NCBI GenBank assembly: GCA_963575745.1
Contig: CAUYUJ010015024.1
Location: 62,001 to 126,000 of the forward strand
Reading direction: 5' to 3'
Length of the DNA: 64,000 nt
Origin: Prorocentrum cordatum
Lineage: Eukaryota > Sar > Dinophyceae > Prorocentrales > Prorocentraceae
The notes below the pieces were generated by a model, which saw nothing but the letters and a program-made list of their open reading frames with translations, made no database searches and had not been told where the DNA came from. Below are positions 34,635-62,538 of the stretch, one piece after another (the stretch's first letter is position 1; each line of letters begins with the position of its first letter). The translations under genes and the position numbers were made by a program.

Positions 34635-34768
34635 CGAAACCTGATGCTTATGCCGTTTTCTGCTTTTTCATTCAGCGAAGGCGACAGATCCGTGCAGCCA
34701 AGACAAGTGCTTGCGGCCCGCCGAAAGCTAGGGCGGGTGAGTCGTGCGCCAGGTTAGACAGGGAGGGA

Positions 34769-34833
34769 GGCTTGAGCGACAAATATACGGACATCTGTGA
34801 TTCATCTCTTGCACATTCTAAGGACAAGTCGGA
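34769..34833. repeat. Terminal direct repeat of outer retroelement, left
   Basis: 65 bp from GGCTTGAGCG to AAGTCGGA, about 88 percent identical by eye to 56700-56764, in the same orientation. The shared core is CGGACATCTGTGATTCATCT. The two copies bracket all coding parts of the tyrosine-recombinase element. Confidence 0.75.
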
Positions 34834-37231: not shown

Positions 37232-37497
37232 AGTCTGAAATGACTATGGTAAGTCAAATAGCATCCGATTCCATGGGAAGCGGATGGCAGATAGCGTCCA
37301 AAGCCATGCTGTGTTGGTTCAGTATGGGGAGTGGACGGATAAGATAGGATAAGATCGATGTAGTGATCTTTCCAGCACATAGCGAACACACGCAGTGTCC
37401 GGGCAAATAGGGCGCGCGTGCCTTGAGCCAAAGGCAACGGCGCGCGAGCTATACTCCCGATCCTCTATAACATCCCCCAAAGAGCTACCCTTAAAGT
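37232..37497 (-). repeat. 3' LTR of the 16.2-kb copia element
   Basis: 266 bp, about 95-96 percent identical to 53123-53387 (11 substitutions and one 1-bp indel counted by eye). It begins AGTCTGAAAT and ends CTTAAAGT on the plus strand. The ends are not TG..CA. The next two bases CA are also shared by both copies, which permits an alternative end at 37499. Confidence 0.9.
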
Positions 37498-37952
37498 CAG
37501 GAGGGGAGGAGACGGTGAGTATAGCCGCGCAGCCGTTAGGCTCTACAAAGGCCGCGCGCGCAACTATTTGCAAGAAAAACAGTGCGTATAGTCTGGCCTA
37601 ACACCAGGCTGTAAGGCGAGTTTCCTCGCAAAGCATTTTCACGCATACGCAAGATAGCCCCTTGGACATCAAAGGGCTATCGGCCCGGCTAGAGGTGAGC
37701 CAAACAGGCTATACCTCTCCAAGCAAAAAGGTATTAAAGGAAAGAGCCTGAATCAATCTGAACAGGCTCGTTGCCAAGCTTGAAAAGTCAGGCTCGTTTC
37801 CGAGCAACTAGGAGGGCGCCTCTGTGTTAGGCGCCCGTACTGGCAAACTGGACCGCGGGGGCAACAAGGACAGACTAAAACTGATTTGACTTAGGCTTAC
37901 TTCTGTCCTCAGGACCCCGAAAGGGAACAAACTGCTTCACGTCATATTTGAA
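37498..37952 (-). other. 3' untranslated region of element 3
   Basis: Lies between the RNase H stop (37953-37955) and the 3' LTR. It holds three GNRA hairpins (37616, 37766, 37792), a GGGCGCC/GGCGCCC hairpin (37814-37836) and an AGAGGT/ACCTCT hairpin (37691-37718). Directly inside the LTR the coding strand is pyrimidine-rich (TCTCCTCCCCTCCTG) where a polypurine tract would be expected. Confidence 0.7.
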
Positions 37953-40125
37953 TTACTGAGTGCCTGACACCACTTCCAAAAGCGGCTCCCGATCGAAACT
38001 CCCCTTTGTATGCCCATCTGCGGTCATGTCTCTAGTATCACACCACTGCACGTTATGCACTAGACCTATATCCATGAGCTCATGGTATCCAGCTGATATG
38101 TCCCAGCAAAGTCCGTTCCGTCGGTATATTAAGATCTTTGCTGGATAGCGATTTGTATACAGACTCAGCGTCTATAGCAAGGGAGACTTTGATAGCTAGG
38201 CCTCCAACTTCACGCATATCTCGTAGTGGTCGTGGAGCAAGTGCCCCTGCCTTGAGCTCGTGGAGAGTGATGAGCGTGGGATAACATTCATCGAGATTGC
38301 GTGCAGCTGCAAGTGCCTCAGCGGCATAGCTGGACCTCACCTGCAATCGGTGTGTTTTGCATAGTCCGTCGCAAAGGTGAATGACGGATTTGCCTTGAGG
38401 CGAGTTTCCTCGCCGTAATACGTTAGCCCCACGGATGCCGCAGCCCTTGGTCTCATCGTCTTCCTCCCCGGTGAGCTTCCGATACCCCGAATCACTGTGC
38501 ATGTCTACTTCATTCGTCGGTTTCATCTGGGGGGAGGTGATGCGTTTCGGGCTGCTGATCAGCTTTCGCGTCGCAGCATACAGTCGTCTGACTTGTAAGT
38601 TGGTGGGCTCTTGGATCTTCTGGAGAGAGACCACATACACCATAAGCCAGACTTGAATAAGAAGGGCATAGGCGAGAGCTCCACGCAGGCTAACGATTAT
38701 GTCGGTGATGAGTTTGGTAGCTTTGGCGTCAGCCGCCGCTCCCGTAAGTTCAGGGTGTGTGATAGGACGTAGTTGTATAATGTACTCGTCATGATCCATG
38801 ATCACATCCCCTTGTTCATTCTTAGTGTAGCGAACGGCGCAGTTCGTATAATAATGTCTGTTGAGTTTGAATTTGCCAAACACCTTCTCGACACGTTGTA
38901 CACAAGCATCTACGTTTTTCTCTAGGCCTGTCATGTTGATATCGTCGACATGTTTTGCCGTTAACAGATCCTGACTGAATTCAAGCTCAGGATCGTAACT
39001 TGTCGGCGTGAGGCCTATTGCTCGTGTAGTCGTACGAAGCTTGAGGGAGAACGCTCTTGGGGCGCCCCTTGTACCCGTTCCTGGCTTGAGGCGCCCGAGG
39101 CAGTGTCGGCTTTCATCGTGAGAAGAGAAGCCTGGTAGTGCACGAAGCACCTGGGCACTTCCTGGTGGAGTGAAGCAAACCATGCGAGTTTCCTCGCCGG
39201 TGGCATGAGCAAGTTCCTCATAGGTCAGACCTTTGAGGAACGCTTTGTCGACATCCATAGATGCTAAGATCCATCCTGGATGACATGCCGCCTCACTTGC
39301 CAGGGGCCTCTGGGACTGTCTTCGAGCAGTTCCTGAGAAAGTTTCTACATCGAACGCCTCCGTGTCCATGAATCCGCGAAGGACAAGTCTGAGACGGATG
39401 GTTTTGACGTTCTCGGTGCCTGCCTTCACAAACTTCCACTTGTATACATACCTGGATGTCATGATGTTGGAAGCTGTAGATAGGTCATACACCTCAACGC
39501 ACCGGTTATCAAGCCAGATCTTGAGTTCGGTGTACAAAACTTCACTAACCTCTTTAGGGTGTGCTGCTATATCGGCTTTGGTGAGTAAGTCGTCTTCCTT
39601 GACTGACACAGCACGTTTAGCAGCCGATGATACATATACTCTCATCGTTGCGACCATATCAGTTTCAAGCTGTGGAAGTTGGGTCTGATCCAACACTGCC
39701 TTTGACATTTCTGGTGTGAAACCTAACTCAACATATGGACCATGTTCATCACTGTCAAGAGAATAGCCCTCGTCAGGTGTAGTCGAGCATAGAGAGATAA
39801 GACAGGGCTCTTGTGGTTCAGGCTCGTCTCCGAGCATTTCCGACACTACGGCATCTTCCTCGTCCACGGATGCTGAGACCAAAACACATTGGTCGGGCAG
39901 CATAGTTGTTGGGACGCAGTAGAGATGATCGTCGGTAACCGCTGTGGGATGAAGGTCCATACGTAACTCATCGTACCACTCCTCCATCATCATAGCCTCG
40001 ATGTCATGTTCCTCGCGTTCTTCGTAGATTGTAGACAGGCGACCTTCACTTGGTGATGAAGCACCTGAAATGTCTGGTGGAGGCCTGTCTCCGGGCTGGT
40101 CGTGTCCTCCAGGCGTTGGGCCCAA
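37953..40125 (-). pseudogene. RT/RNase H of element 3
   Basis: The frame ending at 38080 holds RYVYKWKFVKAG, the motif A Asp in LASMDVDKAFLKGLTYEEL, AKHVDDINMTG as motif C (HVDD, common for this group) and the RNase H start VDMHSDSGYRKLTGEEDDE. A stop at 38080 breaks the RNase H; one base further the frame continues with WCDTRDMTADGHTKGSF and ends at 37953, completing the domain. RT catalytic residues look intact. The frame opens at TTG (40125) inside an acidic linker, so the true start is upstream in the polyprotein. Confidence 0.85.
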
Positions 40126-40207
40126 GTGCTGATACTTGGCAAGGTCATCATGGAATCCGAGGGAAGGAACATGTGACGTCAGGCACTGGATGAGTCTGGA
40201 GTGAGTG

Positions 40208-40612
40208 CTACCAATGATTTGAGATGTTCAGGCCGGTGCCCACACACTCATAATAGTGGAAGGCTGGGTTGACATCGTTGTCGTAGTGGCTCAGTGTAGA
40301 CCCGGTGGCGTACTTTACTGCAGGTAAATTAGACACGCTCTTGGCCAATCTCACGGCTACTACACGTTCAACTCGGATATAATTTCGCACGAGATACTGT
40401 AGTGCAAGATGTACGCGCGGGTGGAACTTGCTGTCGTCCGAAAGATTGAGGTTTCCCTCGTAGTCTGGAATATAGCCAAAGACTTTGGCAGGTTTCCCTG
40501 CACCAAGGTGTGCCACATATGTAAGGACGGTTTGCATGGCCATGTTGCCCATGCCAAGTTCCCTGGTAAGGAGGCATTCAATGTATAGCGTGTGGCGAGC
40601 ATCAGGGTACAT
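40208..40612 (-). CDS. Unassigned polyprotein segment between integrase and RT
   Basis: A 134-residue open frame starting MYPDARHTLYIECLLTREL, with balanced composition and one GNRA hairpin (40488). It lies where copia polyproteins carry the linker between integrase and RT. No domain recognised. Confidence 0.4.
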   Translation of the reverse strand: MYPDARHTLYIECLLTRELGMGNMAMQTVLTYVAHLGAGKPAKVFGYIPDYEGNLNLSDDSKFHPRVHLALQYLVRNYIRVERVVAVRLAKSVSNLPAVKYATGSTLSHYDNDVNPAFHYYECVGTGLNISNHW

Positions 40613-40730
40613 TACAATTACCTCACGTTATCCTGCCTTGACGACGAGGTTCTTGTTCAGGCACGTTACGGATCACAAGAAACGGGCCATTCCAGCCTCC
40701 ATGGTCGTCCTTAGTGGCTGTAAGCCAGTG

Positions 40731-42430
40731 TTAGTCGACCAAGTCCCCTGCTGAGTAAAGGCGAGCACCATCTGGGGCCGTCTTAGCCCTGAGAGCACGA
40801 TTTGTCTTAGCTACCGCCGTGGCTTGAGTTATTGCTTCCAGGCTAACTTCCCTCACGCGGCGTTCTCGTTCGTGGCCTGACGTCCCGGGCCCCTTAGGGA
40901 AGTCGAGGGTGTCGGGGACAGGAAGAAAGGAGGGCTGTCGCCCAGTGCGTGCCTGGCATGGCGATACTCCGTTGTGAAACGTGAGAGCGTTGGTGACGAA
41001 GATGCCTTCAGCCAATACTCTAGTAAATACAACAGGGATGTTGTGTCTGTTCAGCTCTTCCCCAATCATATGGAGAGTACCCCTAAGAATGCCGTTGCGT
41101 GACTCGGTCGAGGTCGCGCGTTGGCCAGGCGCTCGGATACGAAGTGCCGTACCCTTGTTCGCCATCATGACCTTGGCAGTGTCATTGTTGAGGGCGCCTT
41201 CTCCATCTGAATACAAGACTTTGAAGGGTCCATGATAGGCAATCCAGCAGTAGTGGTCGGCGTCGAGTATAGTGTCACGTTCTCTATCAGAAATCTCTTG
41301 GCCTGCTGCCAGGCGGATACATCGGTCCATAATATGAAATACTGTTCGTCTCTTGTGAAACATGAGATCTACTTCGCCTTCGTCAAGCCAATTTCCAGGA
41401 AGGCTTGCGGAGGGTAGCGTAGAATTTCCTGGACGTTCCCATGCTCTACATTCCCGACATGTGTCACAGATTTCTTTGATCATATTTAATCGAACGCTGT
41501 CCAGTCCCACTTTGTCTAGGATCAGCCTCATCTTGGGTTCCTTCGCATGATGCCACCGCAAGTGCAATTTACGGAGTTCCTTTTTGACTACGTGAGGTTC
41601 GTGACTACGGAGGTTTTGCAGACTGTGTTGGATGTCAAATCTTGTCCAGTCGGGCAGCCGTGGAGCCCCAGAGCCGGTTGAGGCAAGAGGGTTCCTCGTG
41701 GCTCTCCGCAGTCGGTCTCCTTCGTCGACTGCATCTGGTGGCGGTGGTACGCCTTGTAGGCGACCACGGCGGGCCGCTACTTGCGGCGGCTCGCCTGAAG
41801 ACGCGGAGGGCGTGTTTCCACGCTCGGGCGCGTCTCGCAGTATGTCGTAACTGCTGGCGCCAGATGTAGGATCTGTATTCCCAAAGGCTCGTGGTCGCGG
41901 TGGCCTGGCGTGAGCGCCCTGACGACCGCCCGATGCCGAAGATTGGCCCTCCCCAGGCTTCGGCAAGGGCTTCCACCAAGCCGGCGCATTGCTGCCCTCG
42001 GGGTCATGATCATCTGGGAGTCTGAACGGCTCGGCAAAACGGCATTTGCAGGGCTCAGTGTCGAGGTGGTTCTTAACACCCTTGCTTCTCGTAAGGTCCC
42101 TTTGGCATGCAGGACATGGCCAGTATACAGAGATAGAGTCATGATACTTACACTGTGTAGGATCTCTGTTGTGACTGGGACTGTCCTTTCGGGCATTGTC
42201 GACGCATGCCGGGCATGTAGCCAATTTTGGGATGATACGATCGCCGATGCGTCTCATACCTTCTCCTGGTTCAGCTTGATCAGGGAGGTCAGCAGGGTAA
42301 GCATGCGCAGTGCGTGTAGGCGCGTCTCCGCGCGTGGTGTCGATGGCTTTCGCTAAATAGACGGCTTCCACAAAGGCAGACGGCAGTCGTCGAGTGTATT
42401 GTGCCAGTGAAAGCTCCGTTGCACGGTTGT
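40731..42430 (-). CDS. Integrase of element 3
   Basis: One open frame (40731-42668) contains a Cys/His cluster upstream (CPACQRDLTRSKGVKNHL, TEPCKC), then the HHCC zinc region (HLRWHHA to CDTCREC), first catalytic Asp in EVDLMFHKR, second in LYSDGEGALNND and Glu in STESRNGIL. DD35E is complete in one frame, so this part could still be functional. The C-terminal stretch (RVREVSLEAITQATAVAKTNRALRAK truncated here to its head RVREVSLEA) leads into the RT linker. Confidence 0.8.
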
Positions 42431-42975
42431 GCGTGCACATGCTGACCAGTGCATTTGAGTCGCTCAAAGGGTTTAAGAATCGTCTCGTCGTTGCTGGTGA
42501 TATTTGTCGGCTTCTTGATATAGTCACCAGCCGTATCTTTAAGTCCCGTCGCACATTGGTCGATGTGTACGGTTGTGAGATGTGGTCGATTGGCAAGTTC
42601 TTTCCAAGGGGAAATATCGCCCACCCATGTTCCTGTGGGTTGTTCGCGTACAAACCACCTCCGTGCATTATCTTGAGTAACAGCTATTTTGCCACAATCA
42701 GTTATGTGTGGCAAATCTTCTTTATGATGCTGCTCCCAAGTGCTATGGTTGGCTTTGTAGTTGTAGTAGGATGGTGGTCCTGTGGTGCGGCAACTGGGCT
42801 GTAGTATGGCTACTCGTACGTGGCATACTGCGAAGTAATGGTCTACAGCTCGCTGCACCGAGGGATCTCCAAGGTCGACGCATGTGGTCTTGTCTAAGTT
42901 GCCTCCTGAAGAGAGACCCCTTGAGAAGGCAAGCTCTGAAATGCCACCCTCACCTCCGCAAAGCTCCAACATATC
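42430..42975 (-). CDS. C5-methyltransferase-like domain of element 3
   Basis: In the frame 42289-44340: MLELCGGEGGISELAFSRG fits SAM-binding motif I, ILQPSCRTTG fits the catalytic Pro-Ser-Cys of motif IV, and FVREQPTGTW sits where ENV of motif VI is expected. The order and spacing match C5-methyltransferase-like folds with diverged motif VI. A frameshift near 42430 joins it to the integrase frame. A TA microsatellite (43015-43036) lies just upstream in frame. Confidence 0.6.
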
Positions 42976-44850
42976 CACGCAATTAATGTGACCATAGCAT
43001 AGAGTAGCTACTATGCTATATATATATATATATATGTCCGCGTGTGTGTCGGGCATAGATGTGGGGAGGGTAAGGAACAGGTCATCTTCCTCATCTGAGC
43101 TTATCAGCTCAACAGGAACGTCAGTGCTCCAGGTCGCCATAAGATCCTGTCCGAGTCCTGACAAGTCGTCACCGCAATCATCGCTTCCGTCTGCAACGTG
43201 CTTTTTGATGCGGCGAGGCTTGATGCCTGCCTCCTTTTCGGCTTTGAGCCTTTTCTTCTGTTTGATACGCGACTCCGTAGGTAAGACTTGCTCGTCTTGT
43301 TCACCGGTCTGTGTGCCCATCGTCGTTGATGAGTGGGTACCTGCTTTAATCGCCAGAGTCGGGAGGGGACAAGGACAGTCATCTATGATGACGCGTCTAG
43401 GTTTCTGTGGTGATTGAGTAGGCTCGTTTCCGAGCATGACCGTTTCCTCGGGCTGCCAGTACATCCGTGGACTGATGTTGGCAACCCCTGTAGGTAGTGG
43501 TGCATGCCAATCATATCCTGTTGGTTGATCGGCTACTGCGATATCCTGAATAATCGCGTTGGTATCCAGGTTGATTGTTCCACGTCGGATGACATCAGAC
43601 CATTTCGGTCCTCCTTTATTGGTCGTCACATAGTGATGTATGTTGTGATCCGTACGTGTATAGGTGTTCAAGTATATCAGCACGTTTCCGTGCGTAGTGC
43701 TGCTCCCAGGATTTTGGTCGTTGAGGTGACGGATAAGTGTGCTGCGTATCTGAGCTATCCATTCAGCATGTCGCACCGCTTGGCCGTACCAATCCAACAC
43801 ATGTTGTGGTATCGCCAATTTGCACGTACATGCCCACAACTCAGAGCTAATCGGTATTGATGTGGCTACCTGCATATCGGTACCACTCGGTGTATTGTCT
43901 TGCATATTAAACCTGATACCGAAATGACATAACCGCATCCGTACTACCGTCAACTTAAGATCTTCCAGAGTATCACGTATTGGGGGTAGCTTCCAAACGT
44001 ATCCTGGGGGGCCAAACGCAATGATTTTCATGCGGAGCTTCTTGGCTGTTGTCAGAAGGTTTTGCATGCGAGACCAGTGTGGGGCTACTCTCTTTCCTGG
44101 GGTTCGTACGTGCCAGTCACCCGGGGTACTAACCCATATTAGAGCATAGTCCCCACTGATCACTGCACCCAGGTAATCTGTGCCCACAGTCGTCATGAAC
44201 TCATTGCGGGAAATGCGATCACAGATATAACCTCGGGTGCGGAGGTCAGCGCAAGCCTCTCTCGCATCTTCGATGACGAAAGCTCTTTTAGCATGGCAGG
44301 TTGCCCCGCTGTCCTTGTTACCCCCTGGCCTTTCAGCCATTCGGCAAGGCGACGAGGGGGCAGCGTCGCCCTGCCATCTTCAAGATAAAGAAGATGCGCC
44401 TGCAACGTCTGCCAGCATCTGGGCTTCCCTCAGATGCTGGAGCTCAGCCCTGCAGCGCGCGGTAGCCTCAGAGGCGGATTGTTCCGCAAACGTGGCCAGC
44501 GTGGACGGATTATCCACTAGCTGCTTCAATGGGCCTTTCGGCCTTGCGTCGTTGACCGTCTGCAGCTCATGGTTCGAGTATCCCAGCACTATCTTCCGGC
44601 GGGACCGTGCAGCATCCATGGGTACAAGTCCGCCATGCTGGGCCAGTGTCCTTGCTACGAAGCAATCGAACGTCTCCAGATCATCGATGCTGTCGCCTCT
44701 CATCGTCGCTTTGGCGAGTGTCGCCAGCAACCCCTGAGGCAGTATTCCCTTTAATTGTTGGCGCTCTTGCGCAGGGGTCGGCTCGCCTGTCAGCACCGTC
44801 TGGAACGATGTTGTACTTGTGCTCGAGGCGGTTTGCCCCGCGGCTCCAAA
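42976..44850 (-). CDS. Polyprotein linker between protease and methyltransferase-like domain
   Basis: Continuation of the protease frame after stops at 44851 and 44380; the frame from ATG 44340 is then open. It includes a segment with alternating hydrophobic residues (YALIWVSTPGDWHV, MKIIAFGPPGYVWKLPP), a Lys/Arg-rich tract (RIKQKKRLKAEKEAGIKPRR) that could be a nuclear localisation signal, and an acidic tract. The repeat-encoded IYIYIY precedes the methyltransferase-like domain. Function unknown. Confidence 0.5.
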
Positions 44851-46245
44851 TCAATCACACCTGATTGACAGATGTCCTGATGGCAACTTCGTTGTCGGCA
44901 TGATCTTGGAGCCCTCGGGGAGTTCCATCTTGACCTGTCCCTTCCCAGGGAATATCAGCTTCTCCTGGCCTCGTTCGATCACAATGATAGCGCGCTTGTC
45001 CTGCGTACTGTCGAGGCCCAGGATAGCTGGCAAGTCCTTGCCACAGCCTGACACAATATTAGTCTTGTACGAGTCGAGCTGGGTCGAACCCTGGTACTCG
45101 CAGGCAATGCTGAAGGTGCCCATGGTATCAGCTGGGGCCGGCCCCTCGCCCACCCCGTTGATGTTCAAACGAGAACGAGGTTCAAACGTACAAGGACGAT
45201 TATGTGCCTCAGCAGCCTGGACGAACTTGCGGCTCGTATTTTCTCCAATTATGTTAATCTTCGAGCCCGCGTCTATGAGGATTGAATTTCCACCATCCTC
45301 AAGAAAGGTCTTACTAGGCTGCTTGATGTGCACTGTCTCTGAAGTGCCGGCTGCGCTGCCTGGCGGGTTTCCCCGCATTTCGGTCGTGCTCCTTGGCGGG
45401 TTTCCCCGCGTCGTGCTGGCACCTGGCCTTCCTGCGGCCATGCGTGCCAGGTCGATGTACTGGAAGTACGACACGTTCTGGGCTTGAGCGCCCTGTTCCT
45501 CCCGCCAGTTGGCATACTCATCACGTATGCTCGTGTACTGTTCGCGGGAAGTACGCCGCGTCAGCGTCAAGTACGAATGAAGGGCGATGTCCTGTAATCC
45601 CTCATTCGTAAGGTGGTCCCTGCATTGCAACCACTCGTCAAACTCATTGTTCGTTGCTGAGAGCTCGACGGCCCTGACTGCTGTTGCCGCTGTCGCCACT
45701 GAAGAGTCTGAGAGATCGAACAACTCGCTCTCAGGATTATCGGCGTCCAGCATGAACGCGTTGTGCGCAGTGTCCATCTGGGTCTGGAAGTGGCGAACAC
45801 GCAGTTCTCGAAGCTGTTCAGGGTCTATTGGCAGCTCGGGCCCACCCCCACCTTGGGGTGACATTGGAGGAGCCACCTGACCAACTCCAGGCTCGTAATG
45901 AGTTGGAGGAATCGACGCAGGCGGGGTGTTGGGCAGGTTTCCCTGCTGTGGCGCCGTCATCGGGATAAGCTGGTCGAAGTATCCCGTCTCCATCGGCGTC
46001 CTCACCTCCTCCGGCGGGTTTCCCCGCTGTTGGGACTGTGCTGTCTGCCTGTCCAGCATGCTGGCTGTCATCTCCTCCACCATGCTCCTCAACTCCCGCA
46101 GCTCCCTCGCTGCCTGTTCGGGAGCCTGAGTGAAGGAGCCGGTCCATGGAAACGATGGCGCTATGATGCCTGGCGCTCGGCAGATAGCACATACTGGTTG
46201 CTGAGGATCTCCTTTCTCGCTGATTCGCAACATGGCCCACCACAT
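44851..46245 (-). CDS. RING C-terminal half, coiled region and retropepsin of element 3
   Basis: The frame opens with the last zinc pair of the RING finger (CAIC, 46180-46191), then a likely coiled coil (ARELRELRSMVEEMTASM) and a Pro/Gly-rich spacer carrying four hairpins. The retropepsin starts at ILIDAGSKINIIG with the catalytic Asp at residue 325 of this frame (plus 45271-45273). The triplet is D-A-G instead of the usual D-T/S-G. LPAILGLDSTQDKRA and SGHLSIRCD complete the fold. Stop at 44851. Confidence 0.75.
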   Translation of the reverse strand: MWWAMLRISEKGDPQQPVCAICRAPGIIAPSFPWTGSFTQAPEQAARELRELRSMVEEMTASMLDRQTAQSQQRGNPPEEVRTPMETGYFDQLIPMTAPQQGNLPNTPPASIPPTHYEPGVGQVAPPMSPQGGGGPELPIDPEQLRELRVRHFQTQMDTAHNAFMLDADNPESELFDLSDSSVATAATAVRAVELSATNNEFDEWLQCRDHLTNEGLQDIALHSYLTLTRRTSREQYTSIRDEYANWREEQGAQAQNVSYFQYIDLARMAAGRPGASTTRGNPPRSTTEMRGNPPGSAAGTSETVHIKQPSKTFLEDGGNSILIDAGSKINIIGENTSRKFVQAAEAHNRPCTFEPRSRLNINGVGEGPAPADTMGTFSIACEYQGSTQLDSYKTNIVSGCGKDLPAILGLDSTQDKRAIIVIERGQEKLIFPGKGQVKMELPEGSKIMPTTKLPSGHLSIRCD

Positions 46246-46336
46246 TCGAGTTCCAGCACTCCTCGTGGAACTGGTGGTTGCACCTCAAGCGGTAGATGCT
46301 TTCCCTCGGCTGAAACTCCTCGAGGCATACCGCGCA
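46180..46336 (-). CDS. RING-H2 zinc finger, split by a frameshift
   Basis: First six ligands lie in the 45818-50341 frame: C1336, C1339, C1354, H1356, H1359, C1362 (CAVC ... CNHQFHEEC). The last pair, CAIC, lies one frame over at 46180-46191. Spacing is C-x2-C-x14-C-x-H-x2-H-x2-C-x~27-C-x2-C, a standard RING-H2. RING fingers usually act as E3 ubiquitin ligases; the target here is unknown. The shift near 46240 may be decay, sequencing error or programmed frameshifting. Confidence 0.8.
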
Positions 46337-49300
46337 GGTGTCTTCCATGCCAGTATAGATTTCCACATCTGCCGCCCTAGGGCACACCCGCCGCTGCCGC
46401 TCCAGGACTGTTTCGGAGCCCATTAGAGCAGCTGGAGGATCTCCTGCGGGAGCCAGTACCTCCGGCGCTACGGCGACCACTGCTGGAGAAGCTGCCGTTG
46501 TGGAGGCTGCGGGCGACACGGCTGGCGAGTTTCCTCGCATAGGTGAGCCCCTGTTCCTCACGACCTCAAGTGCAGCTGCGCGTGCTTGGTCACGTACGCT
46601 CTGTACTGCCTGCCTGCGCCTGAAACACGCCTGTTGAGTGTGGTACGTCTGCCTGATGTAATCTGGTACTCCCCTACTGCCTGATGATATCGAATGGGCA
46701 GTAGGCTGGACGGCCACCTCTGGCGCTGTTGGTGCGGGCATGAAGGCCATGTGCGGATGCATGGACTGATCACTGCAGCGCACATTCGTGAGGCTATGGA
46801 ACTGATCCGCCGTCTCGCGAACAAATCTGTTCGGGACTCTAGACCCGTCTGGGTACAGTGGCGGATCCATTGGTGCTGGCGCTGGCCTCTGGCCCTGAGC
46901 CATGCCCGGATGAGCATTGAAGGCCGGGATAAAGGCTCGTTGCCGAGCAGGGTCACGCGGGTTCGGACCCTCTGGCTCCCAGGACCAGGCTGGCCTCCAC
47001 CTCTGACCGCTTGGGTGGGGAAGGTTGTGACTCTGCACCTGTTGTACCGCAGCTGCCACCCTTGCGCGGTAGTCGTCAGGCACTCCAGCAGCAGTAGTTT
47101 GGCCAGCAAAAGGTCGGTGGTGTATTGGAGTGCCGGGCAGGTTTCCCCGCAGACTCGTTGGCGTGCCAGGTGGCATCATGTTCAGAAGAGCTGTGCCATG
47201 CTCAGCTCTGGCCGCGGCGATCCGCTCCATGAGAGTGCCATTCGTGGCAGACCGACCAGGAGTCCCAAACGGAGACTGTGCTGGTGGTGTCGCCACTGGG
47301 GCCATGCCCCTCGGTGTGTGCATGCTATGCGAGGGGCTCCCTGGCATCTGCTCAAATCGAGCAGGCTCTCCGAAGATGCGGCCGAACGTTTGCGGGTCTC
47401 CCTGCGGTTCGGGCATGTCGTTTCTGAATCCATTAACGGGCAGGTTTCCTTGCATGGCCTGGCGGTTACGCGTCACCATGGCGGACATAGCTCCCTGACC
47501 TGCGGCCCAGGGATCTTGCTGGCACAGTCTGTCCGCTAACTGTTCCACCTGCTCAGGATTTAGAGCGGCCGCGATCTGATCCAGATCTGAGGTGCTGATG
47601 ACCTGCCAAGATATGGCCCTAGGCCCTTGGTTTGGAGCACGGCTTGGAGCCGCGCTTCCTGCCTCACTCTCGTTGATCATGAGGATCTGGTGGATGTCGG
47701 GGTGGTTTCCCAGCACTGTTGGGCTGTAATGGTCCCCTACTTCTCTTTGATCATGAACCGCATGAGGCTCATTAGCCTCTCGGTCAAGAGACCATCTGTG
47801 CTTGATGCTACCACTGCCCACAGTGTTCCACCTGCTCGGGGCCGTCATCATGGCAGTGGAGACGCGTGCAAGGCGATCGCCCAAATATTCTGGGTTCCGC
47901 CATTGCTTTCCCGTGGCAAATTCTTCCACGTGTGTAATATAATACGGCTCAATAATGCCGTATTTTCCTTCTGATAGGAGAACCCCATTGTCGGACCAGC
48001 AAAACGCGATCCCGTCCTTCAGGGCTTGGTGCCAGTCCACAAAAATAACGATCTCGGAATCGGGGCCCCGTCCGCTCTGCACGCCGCGACGACGAAGCGT
48101 CGTCGCAAAATGGATGTGTGAACGGCCAGTCCCTCTCTTCTTGGTGTTGTGTTCTTTACGACAAGAGAGGCCATGCCACATGATGCCCTCAAAGGCCGCC
48201 CATCGTGCACCATGCAAGGCAACCTCGGGGCATGGGGCCGGTCTCCCGGCAGGATTGTCGTGCAGTACAATGTACTTGTACAACGACCACGGGGCCTTGA
48301 GCGTCCACGAGTGCCCTTGCGAGGCACGGATGAAGATGTCGGATTTGCCAGAATCCCGCACCAAGACCTTGAACTGCAGACGCTGCTTCTCCTCACCGTC
48401 CGACTCGCGGACGTGGACGATCGCCACCATGATGGCAGCCATCTGATCAACCGTTCTGTCGTAGAAGATCTCGGCGAAAATCTTGGCCTCACCCAGTCTC
48501 GGGTTATACCCGTCCTGTCTCGTACGTCCGTTGTGCCACGGAAACTCGCGTGCGAGCTCATCGAGATTGATCCATCCATCATGATCGTCGAACGTCTCAA
48601 GGCTCCACGCGGCACTGCGTGGTCTGTCAGGCGCGTGTCTGCAGATCCTGTTGAGGCATTTACTAAGCTGCTTGAGTGTATGATTACTTCTCGGAACAAT
48701 ACCTTTCTGCCGGCAGCTCTCCATGAATGCCTCATCCACCGAGCGTATCGGTGGAAGATTCCGCAGGGCACGTCGACCATTGATTAGCGCCTGACTCCCG
48801 CTAGTAGAGGAAGTGCCCCCCGGGCGATGCAGCTTATCCTCCGGCGGGTTTCCCCGCAAAGGAGCCTCTGTCACCGAAGAGGCTGCGGCTCCTAAGGAGG
48901 AGGATGCTGCAGCTGCAGCGCCTGGCGGGTTTCCCCGCAGTGTTTCTCGGCTGGCGCTGCCCTTGATCTTAGGCACCCAGGTGCCCCTAGATAGAGCACC
49001 TTCCTCAGACCTCTTGGAGCGCGTCGCCACAGGCGAGGCCGGCGTAGGAGTAAACCCTGTACGCTCGAAGGCCTTGGCCTTGCCAGCGATAGAGCCGCTG
49101 CGGCTAGGCTGTCGTCTGCGGATCTCCACGGAGTCCTGAGGTTGTTGCCTAGGGTCGGGTCTCTGTGCCGGAGTTGCTCGAGTCGGTGACTTCGGCGTTT
49201 CAGAACGAGGCATCTCCATCTGCACATCTAACCCGAGTTCCTCTGAGCGGGCCGACGTTTCCTGTCTCTCCCCCAGAGGCGTCCTGGGTGCACGTGTTTC

Positions 49301-50341
49301 GCTTTTGGCCTTCGGTTGGAGTGGGGGCTCCCTTGCCCCCTGCATATAGATCTTTTGGGACTCCAGCAGCATTTGGCGAGTTGCCTCGCGGGTGCGTTCG
49401 TCTGCCACTCGCCTGCGCTCCGCATCTGCTGCGGCTCGCTGAGCCGTCTGTTCATCGTCATCCATCATCTCTGGCTGTTGGGCCTGACTGGAGACGCCAG
49501 GCGGGTTTCCCCGCATTCCAGGAAGGCGATTGAGCGCATCTTTCTCTTCCTGGGTCATAGGCGCGAGTCCCCTCGGAGGCTGGGCCTCCTCGGCCATAGG
49601 GCTTCTGTGAGCCGTGGTTCCGAGACGACGGTTGATCTCGTCGATCTCTGCTTGAGTCATAGGAACCAACGGTGGATGACCCTCCTTTGCAGGAGTGCGG
49701 CCTCTATTCGGGCTCAAGCCCTCGTTGAGCCCTACAGGACACCCAGGCCTGTGTTCCTGGAATGGCTCTGAGCACGGCCCACAGACTGCGTTGGGCCTGT
49801 AAAGCTTGCGCGCCGCAATGATAGTCCGCAGCTGCGTGCGTACTGCCTCTATCTCAGGACGACGAATGTTCGTCGCGAGCTGGTAGCCACCCCGTATGGA
49901 CCCGCCTTGGGCATCCCTGTAGGCTGGGTTGCCTTTTCCAAAAGCAGAATGCTCACCCGTTTGACGCCTAGGGTCGTTGTAGGCGAGCAACTGACCCCCT
50001 CGTCGAGCGGCATGCTCTGATGGGCCTGCTTGCCTCCATTCGCGTGGGGGCCGTGCTTGAGGGTGAGGGTCGCCCCTAAGGCGTGGATGCGAGCGAGACC
50101 TCCTGGCATGCTCATCAGATGAAGCCGCCGACGCAGCCTGAGCAGGAGCCGACGGGGGTTCCTGCGGGGCCGCAGGCGGCGCATCTTGGGCAGGCAGGTC
50201 TCCCTGCTGACTGGAGTCTGGCACAATTGGCTCTTGTGCAGGTGGTGGTGCGTCAGGACTGTCGGGGCTGAAATCCACCTCCTCGTCTTCACCATTGACT
50301 TCCATCGTGAGATGGTGGTCTCGTCCTCGCACATCCCACAA
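46240..50341 (-). CDS. Large polyprotein region with RNA 2'-phosphotransferase (Tpt1/KptA-like) domain
   Basis: An open frame of about 1,370 residues to the frameshift. Residues 1-530 are Pro/Gln/Arg/Glu-rich and disordered, with repeated hairpin-encoded RGNPP. Residues about 545-810 form the Tpt1 domain. Residues 830-1330 are again Pro/Gly/Gln/Met-rich, then the RING. The frame starts at TTG, so the real start lies in the upstream gag frame via another shift near 50400. Placed after gag and before the protease, the region would be released as one or more separate proteins. Confidence 0.8.
47900..48720 (-). CDS. Tpt1/KptA RNA 2'-phosphotransferase domain
   Basis: Motifs in family order: LSKCLNRICRH (R568, H569), DHDGWINLDEL, IRASQGHSW (R672, H677), HGARWAAFEGIMWHGL, RSHIHFA (R740, H742, H744) and FVDWHQALKDGIAFCWSDNGV. 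These are the signatures of the NAD-dependent enzyme that removes a splice-junction 2'-phosphate from RNA, producing ADP-ribose cyclic phosphate. The Arg-His-Arg-Arg active-site set appears complete. The domain is uninterrupted by stops over 270 codons. Some family members also ADP-ribosylate RNA ends. Confidence 0.85.
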
Positions 50342-50399
50342 CCATCACCCTCTTCATCTTCTGACATAGGATTGCCGATGACGACGGTCATCGGTCCAG

Positions 50400-52878
50400 C
50401 CGGGACGGGCAGGTTTCCCCGCTGTACAAGCGTCTGAGCATCGCTTGGCTGCCCCGGCGTCGGCGGTACGGTGGTCGGTTCAGGCTCGTTACCGAGCATA
50501 GTGTACCTCAAGATGATCATGATCATGTGTAGGCTGCCCGATAACATTTCGCATGGCCGTGTGGTTGGGCTGTAATCCCATCGCCTGGAGACCCCATCCC
50601 GGCGGAGGGAGAGCCTGACCGCGCATGGAGATGGCCCTTTCGAGGGCTTGGCGCCATCTCCCTCTGGAATACCGAATACCACACATGTCGTTGCACGTCC
50701 TCAGGGTGCACGCTATCAATGAGATTAAGGGCCGCTAGCACTAACTCCGAGTCGTCACAGGCATCGGTGTCTTGTAGCATCATGTGGCCACTTTCGACAC
50801 TCTCTTGACTCTCGGGATATGCTACGACCAGTACAGCGTGCATCTGCATGAGGGTATGCAGTATCGCGTGCGGTCCGTACTCGCCTGGAGCTAGCGTGCC
50901 AGGTGGTACGTATGGGTTCCCTGGCACGCCCACGGTGAATGCTTGAGACTCTAATTCCATCAGATCAGCATAATTTGGAAGATATACTGGAGTGGGCCTG
51001 CTTCCAGGCATAAGGTCGGGTTGATGTCGAAGGTTGTGGTCAACCTCCGAAGGTGAGGCCTCAAGAGTGATCTCCTCGTCACTGCTCTCGTAGGCCATGC
51101 TGTTGCCTGGGTTACCGGACATCCAGTCGAAGAAAGATAAGGGCTGGTTTCCCAGCGTTCCATTCTCCACAGGCGTAAGCTCGATATTTCCGAGAACAAA
51201 CCTGCGGAGGTACTCGAGGTAGTACGCGTACAGTCCATGGCCGCACGCCTCGAGCTCATCTAAGTTGTCCATGCTGCTGGCCCAAGTGAAAAATATATGT
51301 TCCGCGGCCCCGAAATCTTGGAGGCTCAGATATCCAATAAATGGTTCACTTGAGCCGAAATGGACTTCGGTCGATCTGCCCTTTCCATTTCCCTTCGCTG
51401 GACAATCTTTTACAAAATGATCGGCACTATCACACTCAGGGCACTTTAGGATCTGACCGTCTCTCCCTCGCGGGTTTCCCCGCCTACCTTAACCTTTGCC
51501 TGAGGTATCTCCACGGCCTTTTCCACTGCCTTTCCACCCGAAAAATATTTCATCCTACTGATCATCTGAAAGCCTCTGGAGGAAAGCCGAGATGCCTCGT
51601 CCGTTCAACCTGCGGCGACTCCGTTTGCCTTTACCTTTTCCTTTGAAGCTCCTCCGTATCCTCCTCCTAACACGACGCACTGGTTTTCGTGTGAACCCCC
51701 ATCCACCTACGCTTTGCCTCTTGTAATGACCAGAACAGGTGTTCGGCACGCTGGTTGTCCCCTTCCATTTGCATGATATCTGACCAATCTAGGGGTTCGA
51801 TACCATCTGATGATATGGTGTCGGTGCCGGTGCCGGAGCCGAAATCGTCATTACCTAGGTAGGTGGATACACCGTCGTTTAGGGGATTCGCTTCACCCCA
51901 CAAGGAACGGTGTGGTTGAGGTTCTCTAGGAGGAGGGCTGGCTGCCCAGCTTGGTTGTGGTCGATCCCCTGTTAGTAGGGCAGTAGACTCTCCAGGATCG
52001 TCGGCCCATATGCTGGAGGGCCCGTTGCCAGGCTGAGCATCAGTAGTTAAGGTAGTATAGAAATTTCCACTACCAGTTCCCCTTCCCCTTCCAAACACTG
52101 ATCCTATGTTGCCAGGAGACCGTTCTGACAAATGGCCTATCGAACGCATCCTCTCGCACAACTCATCATGCTGTTGTTGTGTTCGGGGCATTTGGTGGTT
52201 GAGCGGCTGCAAGAGTTGCATGGCTCGCTGGTTGCCGACGCCTAGGGCGCGGAATAGGATAGTAGTGAGCAGTTGGAAGTTGGGAAGGTCAAACCCCACC
52301 GACTGTGCCTCAAGGCGGGCCATCTCGAACCGAGTGAGGGTTACATCGATTCGTTCTCCGTGAGGTACATGAAAGTCGATGAGCTGTGTGCCTGAAGTGA
52401 GCTGGCGCTCATCTTCCAGGCGTTCGAACTTCATGCTTAAGAGGAACATAATGTAGGTTACTGGGTCGGTGTGGACACCATCGATGTCCGCACCGTGGTT
52501 TATAATGTCAGGTGGTACCCCCATGGCGAGCGTCCTCGCTAGGCCACCCAGGCCGCGTTGTATGGCGGCTGCTTGGGCCTGTGGCGTCATGCGTCCGCTT
52601 GCGACGTTAAGCCACGCGTTGACCTCATAGACGTACTCGCGGAAAGGCACGTTGCCTTGAGGGTCCCAGTATGGGCCATGTGTTTGCCCAACTGTGCTGT
52701 TGTCTCCTCGGCGCATGCGTCCGATTGCTGCCCCCAGCGCAAACCATATGATGGCGAAAATAACCAACCCAAGGCTGTGAAGATATGGGTGGTTATCAGG
52801 CGCGTTGCCGCGCTGGGGTAGCGCCTTGTCATGTCTTCGAGGCGCCTTATCTTGCGGGGTTCCCCGCCTCTGCTTCAA
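50400..52878 (-). pseudogene. Gag of element 3 with CCHC zinc knuckle
   Basis: The frame 51667-52878 starts at TTG, with a hydrophobic segment at residues 36-53 (LGLVIFAIIWFALGAAIG), then the UBN2-like core FREYVYEVNAWLNVASGRMT and YIMFLLSMKFERLEDERQL. A shift near 51690 leads to a basic tract (RRSFKGKGKGKRSRRR), stops at 51555 and 51490, and then a frame with the CX2CX4HX4C knuckle at 51402-51443 (CPECDSADHFVKDC). It continues as an acidic region to 50523. Gag here would bind the RNA; the hydrophobic segment is unusual. Confidence 0.75.
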
Positions 52879-52989
52879 GTGCTGCGCTGTTGGCTCATTG
52901 CCGAGCGGTTGGTAGTAGCGTGGTGATGAAGCGTATATGGTACCAATGTTGTTGTCTAGACGTCGTGCCTCTCGCGTTGCTTCTCGCTC

Positions 52990-53122
52990 TTATATTGACC
53001 CTCGTAAATGTAGTTGGAGCGCTGGCGCAGGGTGGTAGTTGGTCACGAAGATCGTGCCGGATAGCGTGAGGACAAGAAGAGCAAGAGCTGACCACACGAG
53101 AGTGCGGCCAGCGCCGCTACCA
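52990..53122 (-). other. Leader of element 3 with a second hydrophobic coding segment
   Basis: Between the primer site and gag the minus strand is open in the gag frame and reads LVWSALALLVLTLSGTIFV before a TGA at 52990. Whether it is translated is unclear, since the frame runs back into the LTR. If joined to gag it would give two membrane-like segments. Confidence 0.35.
53111..53122 (-). other. Primer binding site of element 3
   Basis: Coding strand reads TGGTAGCGGCGC directly after the 5' LTR with no spacer. It is complementary to a tRNA ending GCGCCGCTACCA. The implied acceptor has A1:U72, as in eukaryotic initiator tRNA-Met. Confidence 0.8.
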
Positions 53123-53387
53123 AGTCTGAAATGACTATGGTAAGTCACATAGCATCCGATTCCATGGGAAACAAATGGCAGATAGCGTCCGAAGCCATGC
53201 TGTGTTGGTTCAGTATGGGAGTGGACGGATAAGATAGGATAAGATCGATGTAATGATCTGTCCAGCACATAGCGAACACACGCAGTGTCCGGGCAAATAG
53301 GGCCCGCGTGCCTTGAGCCAAAGGCAACGGCGCGCGAGCTACACTCCCGATCCTCTATACCATCTCCCAAAGAGCTACCCTTAAAGT
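53123..53387 (-). repeat. 5' LTR of the 16.2-kb copia element
   Basis: 265 bp, matches 37232-37497. Contains a run AAGATAGGATAAGATCGATG and the phrase CGAACACACGCAGTGTCCGGGC that could be promoter or R-region sequence; nothing decisive is visible. Confidence 0.9.
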
Positions 53388-53392
53388 CACTC
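53388..53392. repeat. Target-site duplication CACTC, right copy
   Basis: Partner of 37227-37231; followed by GGCGTCGAGG of the interrupted outer element. Confidence 0.85.
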
Positions 53393-54453: not shown

Positions 54454-56736
54454 TCACTCGCTAGCGCCCGGCCGATCCGCGCGCCACTGGGGCTCGTTTT
54501 CCCAATCGGGCCAACTCACGAAGTGCGGGGCGTAGGGCCTCAGCGGCAAGCTGTTAGTCGTGTCGTTGTGAAGACATGGGCGGCCCAAAAGCTCTGAACA
54601 GGCTTCCTGGGCCGACGAGGTCGGAGGGGCGACCATCTTGCGATGCAGCCCGCGAGCGCGTCGAAGTAAAAGATCATACAGCTGCGAGAGGCGCCCTGGT
54701 GCCACCCGCGGTGCGGCGTAGCCCCCAAGCATGTTGAGGCGCCCCGCGGTGCCCCGAGTACGCTGCTCGATAAGCTGGGCGCGAGACAGACGGGCCCGAG
54801 CCGAACGGGATAGTTCAGGCGGCGGGGGTGAAGCAATTGGCGACGCGGGCACCGCGAACTGCAGCGTGCCATCGCCAGGGGACTGGACATCAGCAGGTCT
54901 TCTGAATCTCCGTCTCCTTTGCCAGCCGCTCGGTGGCGCACACGGCTGCGCCTGGTGCCGCAGCAACGCCCCGGCGGGCGCTCTGCTTCGAGCGGCCGAT
55001 GCAATGCTCGACGCCCTCGATCTTCATGCTTCTCACGGTCTCCCCGATCAGCTGGTAAGCCCGCGACGCCACCTCCATGCTGGCAAAATTGGAGCCGTCA
55101 GCCTGGCCGTAGGTGACGGCCATCGCGATAGCGAAACCGAACAGGTCGTGGATGCGCGCGGCCGCCGAGTCCTTCGTGCAGCCACTCTCCGGCATCCACC
55201 TGGCATGGCGGCCATCGGGGGTGCCGCCATGGTCTGCGATGTAGTCGCATAACCACTCGAAACTACGCTCGCCCACGAGAAGGAAGTCGTCATGTGCCCC
55301 CTGTCTCATGGCCGACACCGCCTCGCAGAATTCGCGGCGCCGGCGGCCCTCCCGCGCGCGCTGGCGAGGGCCGAGGAGGCGAGCATCGTCATCGGCAAGC
55401 TTGTCCAAGACCTCGGCCGGCAGCGGGACGGGGTGGAGCTCAATCGGCACGACGGAGCCGCCCCCCGCGCGGTAGAGCCCACTCTCCCCCCAGACCACGT
55501 CGCCAGCCTTTGGGGCGACCTCGCCCAACTGCTGGCACTCGTTCGGGGCCGTCTTCAGCGCGAACCAGGCCGAGCCAGGGGGGCGGCACTCCTTGGCGGA
55601 AAGCAGCGCAGCGCCAGGGCCGACCCTTGAGGTCGCAGCGCCCCCGACCTCGCCGTCGGCGAGCGCTCCAAGCCCCTCGGCGGCCCCGCCAGGCGGGGGC
55701 GTGTCGGGCCCCGGCGCCTGGCCCGCGGGCGGAGCGCTGGGCGCGCCCCAAAGCACGGCCGCTGGCGGGCTCTTGCGCCATACGCGGCGCACGAACCCTG
55801 GCACGTCGGCGAGGCTGATTGTCATGCTCTGGGGAGGCCGGCCACCGTCGCGCATGAAGGCAGTTGGCTCGCCTTCGACCCCACCTGCAGCGCGCGCGGC
55901 TAGGCGCGCGTCCCGAAAGAGTTGGATCATGTCGTCCTCACTCGGGTACTCGTGGAACCTGTAGACCCGCCCTGCAGGGCGGAGAGCAGGTCGGTGTCGC
56001 CCCCATCGTGAGGGACGCGCGGCTGGGCCCGTCCCCATCGGGCCCGGCCGCCATCTCCTCGGGGTACACGTCGCCGTCGGGCGTGAGGCACGTCCAGCAG
56101 GTGTGGGGGAACAGCCCGGCGGACGGCCACAGCAGCAGCCGCTCGTGCCCGACATTCGGGTCGTCCTCGTAGTAGAAGGTGACCACCCTTCCCAGCACGA
56201 GCTCATTGAAGAACGCCTCCGCCTCGGCGCCGCTCCCGTCGCTCGCGACGAGCGTCAGGTTCGAGGGCAGCGGAGCCATGGCGACGGAGAGGGGCCGTGA
56301 TGCACAGGCCACACTGACTCAGCACCGCGGTCAACACCACCCCGAACGCGTGCAGCAAGAGCGAGTCGAACTCCTCGGGCAGCACGGGCCTGGCGGCGCG
56401 AAGCTCGGTCAGCTCCGCCGACAAGTTGGACAGCGCAATCTGTACCTGCCCCAGCGCAGTGTGGCACTGGCTGAGGTTAGCCGCGTGCACCGCGGCGAGC
56501 TCGGCCTCCCGCCTGGCGGCCAGCTGAGCCGCGAGGGAGGCCCGACGGTCCCAGTCGTCAGGCGGGCTGCCCCCGCCGCCCGTGCGCAGCAGTCCAGGCT
56601 GCCACGCGTCCAGAGCACACCAGACGCAGACCAGCAACCACGATGGCGGCCGGAAGACAGCAGGGCGCATACGTGTCAGGTGCTCCCTGAGGTGAAAAAG
56701 GCTCGAGCGAAAAGTATGCGGACATCTGTGATTCAT
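54454..56736 (-). pseudogene. N-terminal region of the outer element
   Basis: A first frame (56203-56736) starts in the terminal repeat with MNHRCPHTFRSS, then a likely coiled coil (AAQLAARREAELAAVHAANL). The second (55938-56312) has VTFYYEDDPNVGHERLLLWP; the third (54890-56206) includes YRFHEYPSEDDMIQLFRDARL, GGSVVPIELHPVPLPAEVLDKL and FEWLCDYIADHGGTPDGRH. These resemble the long N-terminal part of this dinoflagellate retroelement family, of unknown function (gag-like by position). Confidence 0.5.
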
Positions 56737-56764
56737 CTCCTACACGTTCTAAGGACAAGTCGGA
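56700..56764. repeat. Terminal direct repeat of outer retroelement, right
   Basis: GGCTCGAGCG to AAGTCGGA; matches 34769-34833. Confidence 0.75.
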
Positions 56765-59922: not shown

Positions 59923-60238
59923 CGCGCGCGGCGACGCGCGCGTGTGCACTTCGTCCCGTGTTTTGCAAGGAATGTGGGAAACTCATGCTTGTTGATAAAT
60001 GAATGTGCGCGCGTATTTCGTTTGCAGAGGATGAGGGGGATTGCCATTTTGGCTGGGATGATATGAGTTCATATGTCGGATGGACGATGGGGCAAAATCG
60101 CATGTAAATTGCGATACGCGAAAGGGTACAATACCGTGAAGTCGGGGGGGGAGAGAGGGGAGATCCTATTACTCATTCGGACAGAAGAACTTGTGTGACG
60201 CAATCTATGTTGACAATCTATGTCGTGCAATCGACGAG

Positions 60239-61860: not shown

Positions 61861-62538
61861 TGGAATCATTCTCTGAGGCGCTCAAGCTCCAACTGCGGGC
61901 GGATCTCCACCATTGACGGTGGCCCAGAAGACCATTGCGGAGTGGCTCACCGATGTCGCCCAGGCTTCGGCGCTGGGCGTCTGACCGAGTCGTCGCTCGA
62001 GCGGGCAAGGACTGGTGGCTCTTCTCAGCGTGCGCGTGGGACTATTTGGGCGATGGCGTGCACGCCGCTGCTTCACCCGCCTTCCTGTTCCTCCGCAACC
62101 GCTCCCTTTCCTCCGCCCATGCCCTGGTGCCAATTCGCAATCGCGCACCCCGCCCTCGGCCGACCCACGCCGTGCGAGCGCCAGCGCTGCGACAATGAGT
62201 GCACGCCGCTGCTTTTCGCAGCTGGGCGCGCATGGTCGCCAACCAATGGTGGATCGACGGGGTCCGCGCGAACCGGTGAACAAGCTACAGCTGACCTCGT
62301 TTCCGGGCGCACCACAGCCTACGACATCCAGCAATTCGGACGCTGCTTGGCCCGAAGACGTGTTGGCTAGCCTAGCGCCCTTGCTTTTCCGAACAGCGCA
62401 TCCATTGACTATCCGCGAAAACCACGAACCATGCACATCACAACCATGACCAGGCGGGCGATCAGCCAACACGGAACACTCCCACCTCGCACTAACCCCT
62501 CTCTGTACCTTCGCCCCCTAGTTCCCCTCCTCCCTCTA

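Follow-up and report, generated by a model that had tools for sequence, protein, structure and literature searches.

Does a mobile element carry a repeated RNA structure through its own coding sequence, and if so, what is it for? The question is raised by a 64-kb window (59.8% GC) of the dinoflagellate Prorocentrum cordatum, positions 62,001 to 126,000 of contig CAUYUJ010015024.1. On its minus strand lies a long terminal repeat (LTR) retrotransposon of 16,158 bases, spanning 37232-53389, in which short hairpins of the form GCNNG-GNRA-CNNGC recur on the sense strand. An initial annotation of the window had described about 29 of them, and had explained them either as a structural code in the RNA or as a very small palindrome that proliferates and is tolerated by the element.

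A Recurrent GNRA Hairpin on the Sense Strand

A hairpin was scored as strict when both middle pairs were standard (Watson-Crick or G-U). By this rule the motif is real and its count is 31, all on the minus (sense) strand between 37616 and 52813 (Table 1). The start of the range originally given is correct, and its end, 52906, belongs to a decayed copy (52893-52906). The antisense strand of the element contains no strict motif. Elsewhere in the 64 kb, where none had been reported, there is a single exact match, on the plus strand at 59926-59939. The comparison with dinucleotide-shuffled sequence that had been suggested is clear-cut: 200 shuffles of the element gave a mean of 0.025 strict motifs and never more than 1. 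In this lineage of elements, one hairpin is found per 0.35-0.5 kb on average.

Among the 31 hairpins, 26 are fully Watson-Crick and five contain a G-U pair, the number first noted. The middle stem positions take 12 combinations, where at least nine had been claimed. The loops are the same four as described before, GAAA (20), GCAA (6), GAGA (4) and GUAA (1), and the base directly 3' of the hairpin is C in 28 cases. The stem pairing is not a circular result of the search: when the pattern was counted without the pairing rule, 31 of 34 matches in the window copy were still paired, against a mean of 9.2 (maximum 17) with shuffled 3' arms. Two siblings gave 34/36 and 34/35 (shuffled-arm means about 8-9, maximum 17). 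In the window copy, 14-mers with GC ends whose loop is not GNNA show pairing no more often than chance (2 of 57; shuffled mean 2.18), so the stem goes with the GNNA loop there. Within one pol frame the hairpins are translated in all three codon phases, as AGKPA, GEETR and RGNSP; at least two had been recognized before.

Conservation among Sibling Copies

The genome (4.13 Gb in 21,875 contigs) was searched with a 1.5-kb reverse transcriptase (RT) query, and 40 of 1,567 first-look candidates were scored, with 91-100% identity. Thirty sibling loci of 4.5 kb each, window copy included, were compared. Eight family-level hairpins occupy the same places, each in 21 to 29 of the 30 copies. Three of the eight lie 3' of the pol stop; this stop could be placed in 23 of the copies, and in the other seven its search motif was not found. 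All 31 places of the window copy align in two full-length siblings, where 22 are unchanged in both and nine are changed in at least one. Conversely, siblings have hairpins at six places where that of the window copy is broken. The G-U pairs at 50409 and 47137 are A-U in both full siblings and thus look like recent one-step changes.

The hairpins diverge less than their surroundings. An earlier count (7 and 8 differences in 434) was biased by the choice of sites in the window copy and was replaced by a test in which hairpin sites were chosen in a third copy. This gave 18/476, 18/476 and 11/434 differences in hairpins; the corresponding flanks differed at 322/4171, 235/4126 and 331/3953, the second contrast being the weakest (0.038 versus 0.057). 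Over the 30 loci, the mean divergence of the eight hairpins is 0.021 versus 0.047 for flanks. GC-rich control windows have a mean of 0.034 and reached the hairpin value in 0.8% of draws (p=0.008). At third codon positions, divergence is 0.025 in hairpins versus 0.055 in flanks.

A Second Family with GNCA Loops

A cluster of pattern matches on contig C1 led to a second, related family; 40 of 3,060 first-look candidates were scored, with 99-100% identity to C1 in RT. The second family also encodes Tpt1, RING (open reading frame (ORF) L010:1895-8812) and, by pattern, a CCHC knuckle. Its sense strand carries 47 GC-clamped GNNA hairpins, in which the third loop base is C in 38, A in 6, T in 2 and G in 1. 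When GCNNN-GNCA-NNNGC was counted without the pairing rule, pairing was seen in 38 of 42 matches; shuffling gave 18 on average and 25 at most. GG predominates at the two outer inner-stem positions, and variation in the closing base is matched by its partner (GGG/CCC, GGA/TCC, GGC/GCC); the peptide series AGxPA, AExSA and AAxAA follow this base pairing.

All 29 hairpins within the second family's 2306-aa ORF stand in one codon phase, which is thus constrained in that frame. The hairpins of its RT ORF use phases 0, 2, 2, 2, 0 and 1. Hairpins also occur as tandem units at 18-, 24- and 30-base spacing. There are three 30-base-spaced units in C2 and in C83 and two in C1, and four 24-base-spaced units in C2 and two in C83, a copy 99% identical to C1 in RT. 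As the number of units differs among copies, local duplication is one source of the growth seen in this family.

Hairpin Sites Shared between the Families

The two families were compared in a codon alignment of pol with one copy of each, L054 for the window family and L053 for the second (4,116 aligned bases; 62% nucleotide and 66% amino acid identity). Three of the six window-family pol hairpins are common to both (40488, 39822 and 38400 in Table 1), and the window copy carries the same three sequences as L054. Four pairs differ at these shared sites; all four changes are two-sided and no pair is broken. At 40488, where both families encode AGKPA, both changes are synonymous and fall at third codon positions. 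At the other two sites, the loop switches from GNRA in the window family to GNCA in the second. At the place of the hairpin in the RT core (39184), the second family has a sequence encoding GEKER. This difference consists of substitutions and involves no change of length, so no unit was inserted there. The site near 40083 coincides with a 9-base length difference between the families.

Genome-wide counts were made on both strands with the pattern read backwards as control, and they count copies rather than independent events. GCGGG-GNCA-CCCGC occurs 16,925 times (control 995), the same stem with GNRA 12,621 times (control 1,932) and with GNTA 1,434 times (control 463). With any loop, the stem gives 63,186 versus 40,489, each palindrome being found on both strands. 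The paired GCGAG-GNRA-CTCGC was found 6,584 times versus 445 for its backwards control, and the unpaired form with swapped arms, GCGAG-GNRA-CGAGC, 617 times versus 1,795. Searches without pairing gave 112,050 and 113,179 (controls 74,774 and 74,818); Watson-Crick pairing was present at 12 of the first 100 places, which indicates that this count is mostly background. Loci L001-L008 and L012-L018 were left out of later analyses.

A Possible Role in RNA Packaging

Selection on the shape of the RNA is well supported by these sequence comparisons: the fixed G and A of the loop, the GC clamp, the strand bias and the matched stems together point to recognition of a folded form. Each unit consists of a GC-clamped stem of 5 bp closed by a G-N-N-A tetraloop. 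The first and last loop bases and the outer GC pairs would be held fixed by selection on the folded RNA, the inner pairs would drift in matched fashion and the coding phase would be largely free. The structural RNA code of the initial annotation is thus the favored of its two explanations, given the low divergence, the two-sided changes across families, the loop and strand preference and the RT-core hairpin that differs without a change of length.

The reading that we prefer, and to which we give about an even chance, is that the hairpins are dispersed recognition sites on the sense transcript of a copia-type LTR lineage, bound by a protein for packaging. The packaging role itself is inferred by analogy with viral systems. 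A putative RNA-binding protein encoded by the element would bind the hairpins many times per transcript; the first candidate is the Gag part with its CCHC knuckle, the second the Tpt1 part. Such multiple binding would select the 16-kb RNA and condense it into a virus-like particle. The third loop base differs between two co-resident families, which suggests a cognate protein, and the GNRA and GNCA preferences may reflect diverged binding specificities that limit cross-packaging. More tentatively, and with rather less confidence than an even chance, this class of elements may write a repeated RNA "address" through its coding sequence, with the loop dialects of the families (GNRA, GNCA, perhaps GNTA) forming an orthogonal packaging code. 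High-copy relatives could then share a cell without packaging each other's RNA.

The closest parallels are the dispersed packaging signals of RNA viruses, described for MS2, satellite tobacco necrosis virus, parechovirus 1 and the pregenomic RNA of hepatitis B virus, where many short stem-loops with a shared motif likewise lie on one RNA. According to two papers (PMC6281560, PMC5431903), such stem-loops share a recognition motif along the viral RNA, and in the first of them the repeated sites are modelled as favoring specific packing of a long viral RNA. The elements likewise carry many stem-loops with a shared loop motif (31 strict GNRA hairpins in the window copy, 47 GNNA hairpins in the second family), with low sibling divergence and with compensation at three of the six pol sites, the other three being unshared. 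Packaging signals in this sense are bound by the coat or Gag protein and needed for assembly. The viral motifs vary around a shared core, whereas the hairpins described here are far more uniform, GC-clamped and located in an LTR retrotransposon. No described equivalent turned up in the literature searched, in agreement with the initial annotation.

Several results weigh against the preferred reading. Regular spacing was not found: the gaps between hairpins in the window element fit random placement (Kolmogorov-Smirnov p=0.28). Predicted folding in context gives a mean stem probability of 0.72 for the window element versus 0.79 with shuffled flanks, and of 0.44 versus 0.69 for the second family. 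Neither the loop rule nor the strand rule is absolute in the second family. Its 14-mers with non-GNNA loops are paired in 10 of 79 cases (shuffled mean 3.56, maximum 9), and its antisense strand holds five paired GNNA 14-mers versus 47 on the sense strand (antisense pairing by loop: GNRA 4/7, GNCA 0/4, GNTA 1/2). The second family also keeps 7 GNRA hairpins. Compensatory changes among siblings had been proposed as the sign of RNA function. The sites are indeed kept and diverge little, but all stem variants in the 30 loci are one-sided. Compensation is therefore seen only between families, and recent change looks like purifying selection and decay after insertion, not active stem repair. At three of the six window-family pol sites the second family lacks a hairpin, which shows that sites turn over between the families. 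For the shared site at 39822, orthology is less sure because this site is found in a variable linker that borders an alignment gap; without it, two two-sided pair changes remain. Copy number inflates the genome-wide motif counts. Finally, Ty1 and Ty3 are LTR retrotransposons as well, and Gag particles likewise enclose their RNA. The cis sequences needed by yeast Ty1 lie near the ends, about 380 nucleotides at the 5' end together with 357 at the 3' end being enough (PMC4974528), whereas the hairpins span the element. On that account, dispersed internal signals would not be general in LTR elements.

Alternative Explanations

The chief rival, which stays a live one, is self-templated mutation. 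Template switching within small inverted repeats, at reverse transcription or replication, could make a perfect stem in a single event and keep mending it, so that compensation would need neither selection nor function; GNRA loops favor such switching. Such patterns are reported from RNA genes, with GNRA loops enriched among instantaneous compensations (PMC8794818). The hairpins of those genes resemble the present ones in their perfect short stems and paired changes, but they reflect a mutation mechanism rather than a repeated motif on one transcript. The 9-base gap near 40083 holds most of the loop and the 3' arm, as a switch could leave. We nevertheless judge this explanation unlikely. By itself it leaves the GC clamp, the GNCA preference, the strand bias and the low hairpin divergence unexplained, and repair should produce matched changes about as often as reversions, yet none was seen in the 30 loci. 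In addition, no GC-clamped GNNA hairpin was found in 2.4 kb, a small sample, of the more distant copia-type family C5091 (49% identity to P0028), so that the trait seems bound to one lineage. Were self-templating nonetheless the cause, the hairpins would show clearly how covariation can arise without any function, a warning for efforts to discover RNAs by covariation. An equally low probability is assigned to hairpins selected for another role, such as stability or export, escape from small-RNA silencing, pacing of translation or presentation to the Tpt1 domain. All the evidence for selection applies equally to such roles, and both families with hairpins encode a Tpt1 domain; the diverged loop preference would, however, fit a cognate protein better than a generic structure, and no specific alternative pathway is indicated by the sequence.

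The tiny selfish palindrome, copied within the element and tolerated, fares less well than in the initial annotation and is quite improbable. It would account for the tandem units of the second family, whose number differs among C1, C2 and C83, and for an extra piece inserted at the 37616 site in one of the two full siblings. It sits poorly with the same sites being kept in siblings of the window family, with an RT-core hairpin that arose without a change of length, and with 12 inner combinations that are diverse yet matched and strongly biased to one strand. Short mobile palindromes of bacteria and organelles (REP-type sequences, GC clusters) are likewise small, GC-rich, multicopy hairpins. 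The hairpins of the element differ from them in being tied to one lineage and mainly to one strand, with a loop rule and covarying inner pairs. Least probable by far is a protein-level cause, in which short peptides (AGxPA, RGNxP) are selected and the palindrome is a by-product. The single phase of the 29 hairpins in the 2306-aa ORF is what it would predict, and A[GE]LPA peptides recur in locus L055 where stems are sometimes broken. As a sole cause it was rejected because of the three phases within one pol frame, the three sites 3' of the pol stop and the paired synonymous changes at the AGKPA site; moreover, AGxPA-type residues covary as pairing dictates (G with P, E with S, A with A). The earlier statement that peptide selection cannot explain the hairpins holds for pol and the 3' non-coding sites, but the single codon phase in the 2306-aa ORF of the second family limits it there.

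Introner elements of Amoebophrya are also hairpin-forming inverted repeats that spread in a dinoflagellate genome. As described in PMC7789003, they are introns that carry inverted repeats of 8-20 nt, with direct repeats where they meet the exons, whereas the pol 14-mers tested are translated within a conserved protein. Excised mini-introns or introners were rejected for the pol sites, as the RT-core and AGKPA hairpins are translated in conserved protein and align without gaps.

If the hairpins do act in packaging, assembly through many dispersed RNA signals would extend from certain RNA viruses and hepatitis B virus to LTR retrotransposons, with signals uniform enough to be read by eye. Codon choice would here give way to RNA structure to a striking degree, even within the core of the reverse transcriptase. 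Two high-copy families with two loop preferences in one genome would let one observe, as a natural experiment, how competing relatives diverge in RNA-protein specificity.

Organization of the Element

Table 1. Features of the retrotransposon in the window. Hairpin sequences are written as DNA on the sense strand.
Feature	Position	Strand	Remarks
5' LTR	53123..53389	-	95-97% identity to 3' LTR
Probable primer binding site TGGTAGCGGCGCT	53110..53122	-	adjoins 5' LTR
Gag-like open frame	51670..52989	-	440 codons; no Pfam match
CCHC zinc knuckle CPECDSADHFVKDC	51402..51443	-	sequence pattern; Pfam knuckle E=0.19 only
Tpt1/KptA RNA 2'-phosphotransferase domain	47966..48394	-	PF01885, E=4.8e-22
RING zinc finger	46256..46336	-	PF17123, E=1e-8
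Integrase-region open frame	40734..42683	-	by eye, similar to the beginning of homologue P0002
RT-RNaseH open frame, Ty1/copia type	38083..40227	-	RVT_2 match; 56 homologues
3' LTR	37232..37499	-	LTR pair 267-268 bp
GCGCG-GCAA-CGCGC	52800..52813	-	
GCCTG-GCAA-CGGGC	52020..52033	-	G-U pair
GCGGG-GAAA-CCCGC	51470..51483	-	
GCTGG-GAAA-CCAGC	51143..51156	-	
GCTCG-GTAA-CGAGC	50484..50497	-	
GCGGG-GAAA-CCTGC	50409..50422	-	G-U pair
GCAGG-GAGA-CCTGC	50194..50207	-	
GCGGG-GAAA-CCCGC	49501..49514	-	
GCGAG-GCAA-CTCGC	49376..49389	-	
GCGGG-GAAA-CCCGC	48925..48938	-	
GCGGG-GAAA-CCCGC	48844..48857	-	
GCCGG-GAGA-CCGGC	48237..48250	-	within Tpt1 domain
GCGGG-GAAA-CCTGC	47137..47150	-	G-U pair
GCTCG-GCAA-CGAGC	46935..46948	-	
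GCGAG-GAAA-CTCGC	46525..46538	-	
GCGGG-GAAA-CCCGC	46014..46027	-	
GCAGG-GAAA-CCTGC	45933..45946	-	
GCGGG-GAAA-CCCGC	45396..45409	-	
GCGGG-GAAA-CCCGC	45363..45376	-	
GCGGG-GCAA-CCTGC	44296..44309	-	G-U pair; at DSGATCH stretch
GCACG-GAAA-CGTGC	43680..43693	-	
GCTCG-GAAA-CGAGC	43422..43435	-	
GCGCG-GAGA-CGCGC	42320..42333	-	
GCGTG-GAAA-CACGC	41810..41823	-	no hairpin here in second family
GCAGG-GAAA-CCTGC	40488..40501	-	second family GCGGG-GAAA-CCCGC
GCTCG-GAGA-CGAGC	39822..39835	-	second family GCAAG-GCCA-CTTGC
GCGAG-GAAA-CTCGC	39184..39197	-	RT core; no hairpin in second family, equal length
GCGAG-GAAA-CTCGC	38400..38413	-	RNaseH; second family GCGTG-GCCA-CACGC
GCTCG-GAAA-CGAGC	37792..37805	-	3' of pol stop
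GCTTG-GCAA-CGAGC	37766..37779	-	G-U pair; 3' of pol stop
GCGAG-GAAA-CTCGC	37616..37629	-	between pol stop and 3' LTR
Decayed copy	52893..52906	-	intact in both full siblings
Decayed copy	52854..52867	-	intact in both full siblings
Decayed copy	51937..51950	-	intact in both full siblings
Decayed copy	50996..51009	-	intact in both full siblings
Decayed copy	44828..44841	-	intact in both full siblings
Decayed copy	40083..40096	-	intact in 27/30 loci

The two LTRs identify the element as an LTR retrotransposon. Its probable primer binding site may resemble that of an initiator-Met tRNA, and the DSGATCH stretch is presumably a protease-like motif. The window copy is split into many frames. Its RT is of the copia type; the RVT_2 match of the RT frame (E=1.3e-5, 25.4 bits) lies under the curated cut-off of 31.6. 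PF07727 is present in 36 of the 56 homologues of this frame, three of which carry organism names (Polarella, Symbiodinium and Amphidinium), in keeping with a dinoflagellate host. No Pfam integrase match was found in the frame upstream of RT, and no relative of the RT frame was found in the viral contigs scanned. Scans of the window gave no tRNA and no Rfam match at gathering scores.

In both hairpin-bearing families, a Tpt1/KptA domain is located inside the LTR-retrotransposon polyprotein, with a RING finger downstream. No case of Tpt1 in a retrotransposon was named among the matches listed in the literature search.

Other Loci and Repeats

GNTA sites are mixed, some of them lying within tandem repeats or other sequence. 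Locus L055 (C19:65401-65800) has GCGGG hairpins with GCTA or GTTA loops and AGLPA peptides, and in L061 and L062 such hairpins occur in 34-36-base tandem units. These three loci may represent plain tandem repeats or a further element with hairpins. At the peptide level, RGNTH (P0001) and RGNAP (P0002) were found at the RNaseH place among the 56 homologues, and the RNaseH region of the metagenome protein P0026 contains the tandem series HGNVTSD HGNVTSD RGNATTE SEETRHD. Both observations are suggestive but have low specificity and were not counted. The P0026 peptides would be compatible with hairpins of another species in which the outer pair is U-A.

Outside the retrotransposon, a 66-base direct repeat, 89% identical, flanks it at 34768-34833 and 56699-56764. 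Further away, at 18090-20960, the window contains tandem repeats of about 105 bases, the unit of which seems to encode a "KLEPNIITYS"-like peptide that, by eye, we take to be similar to pentatricopeptide-type repeats.

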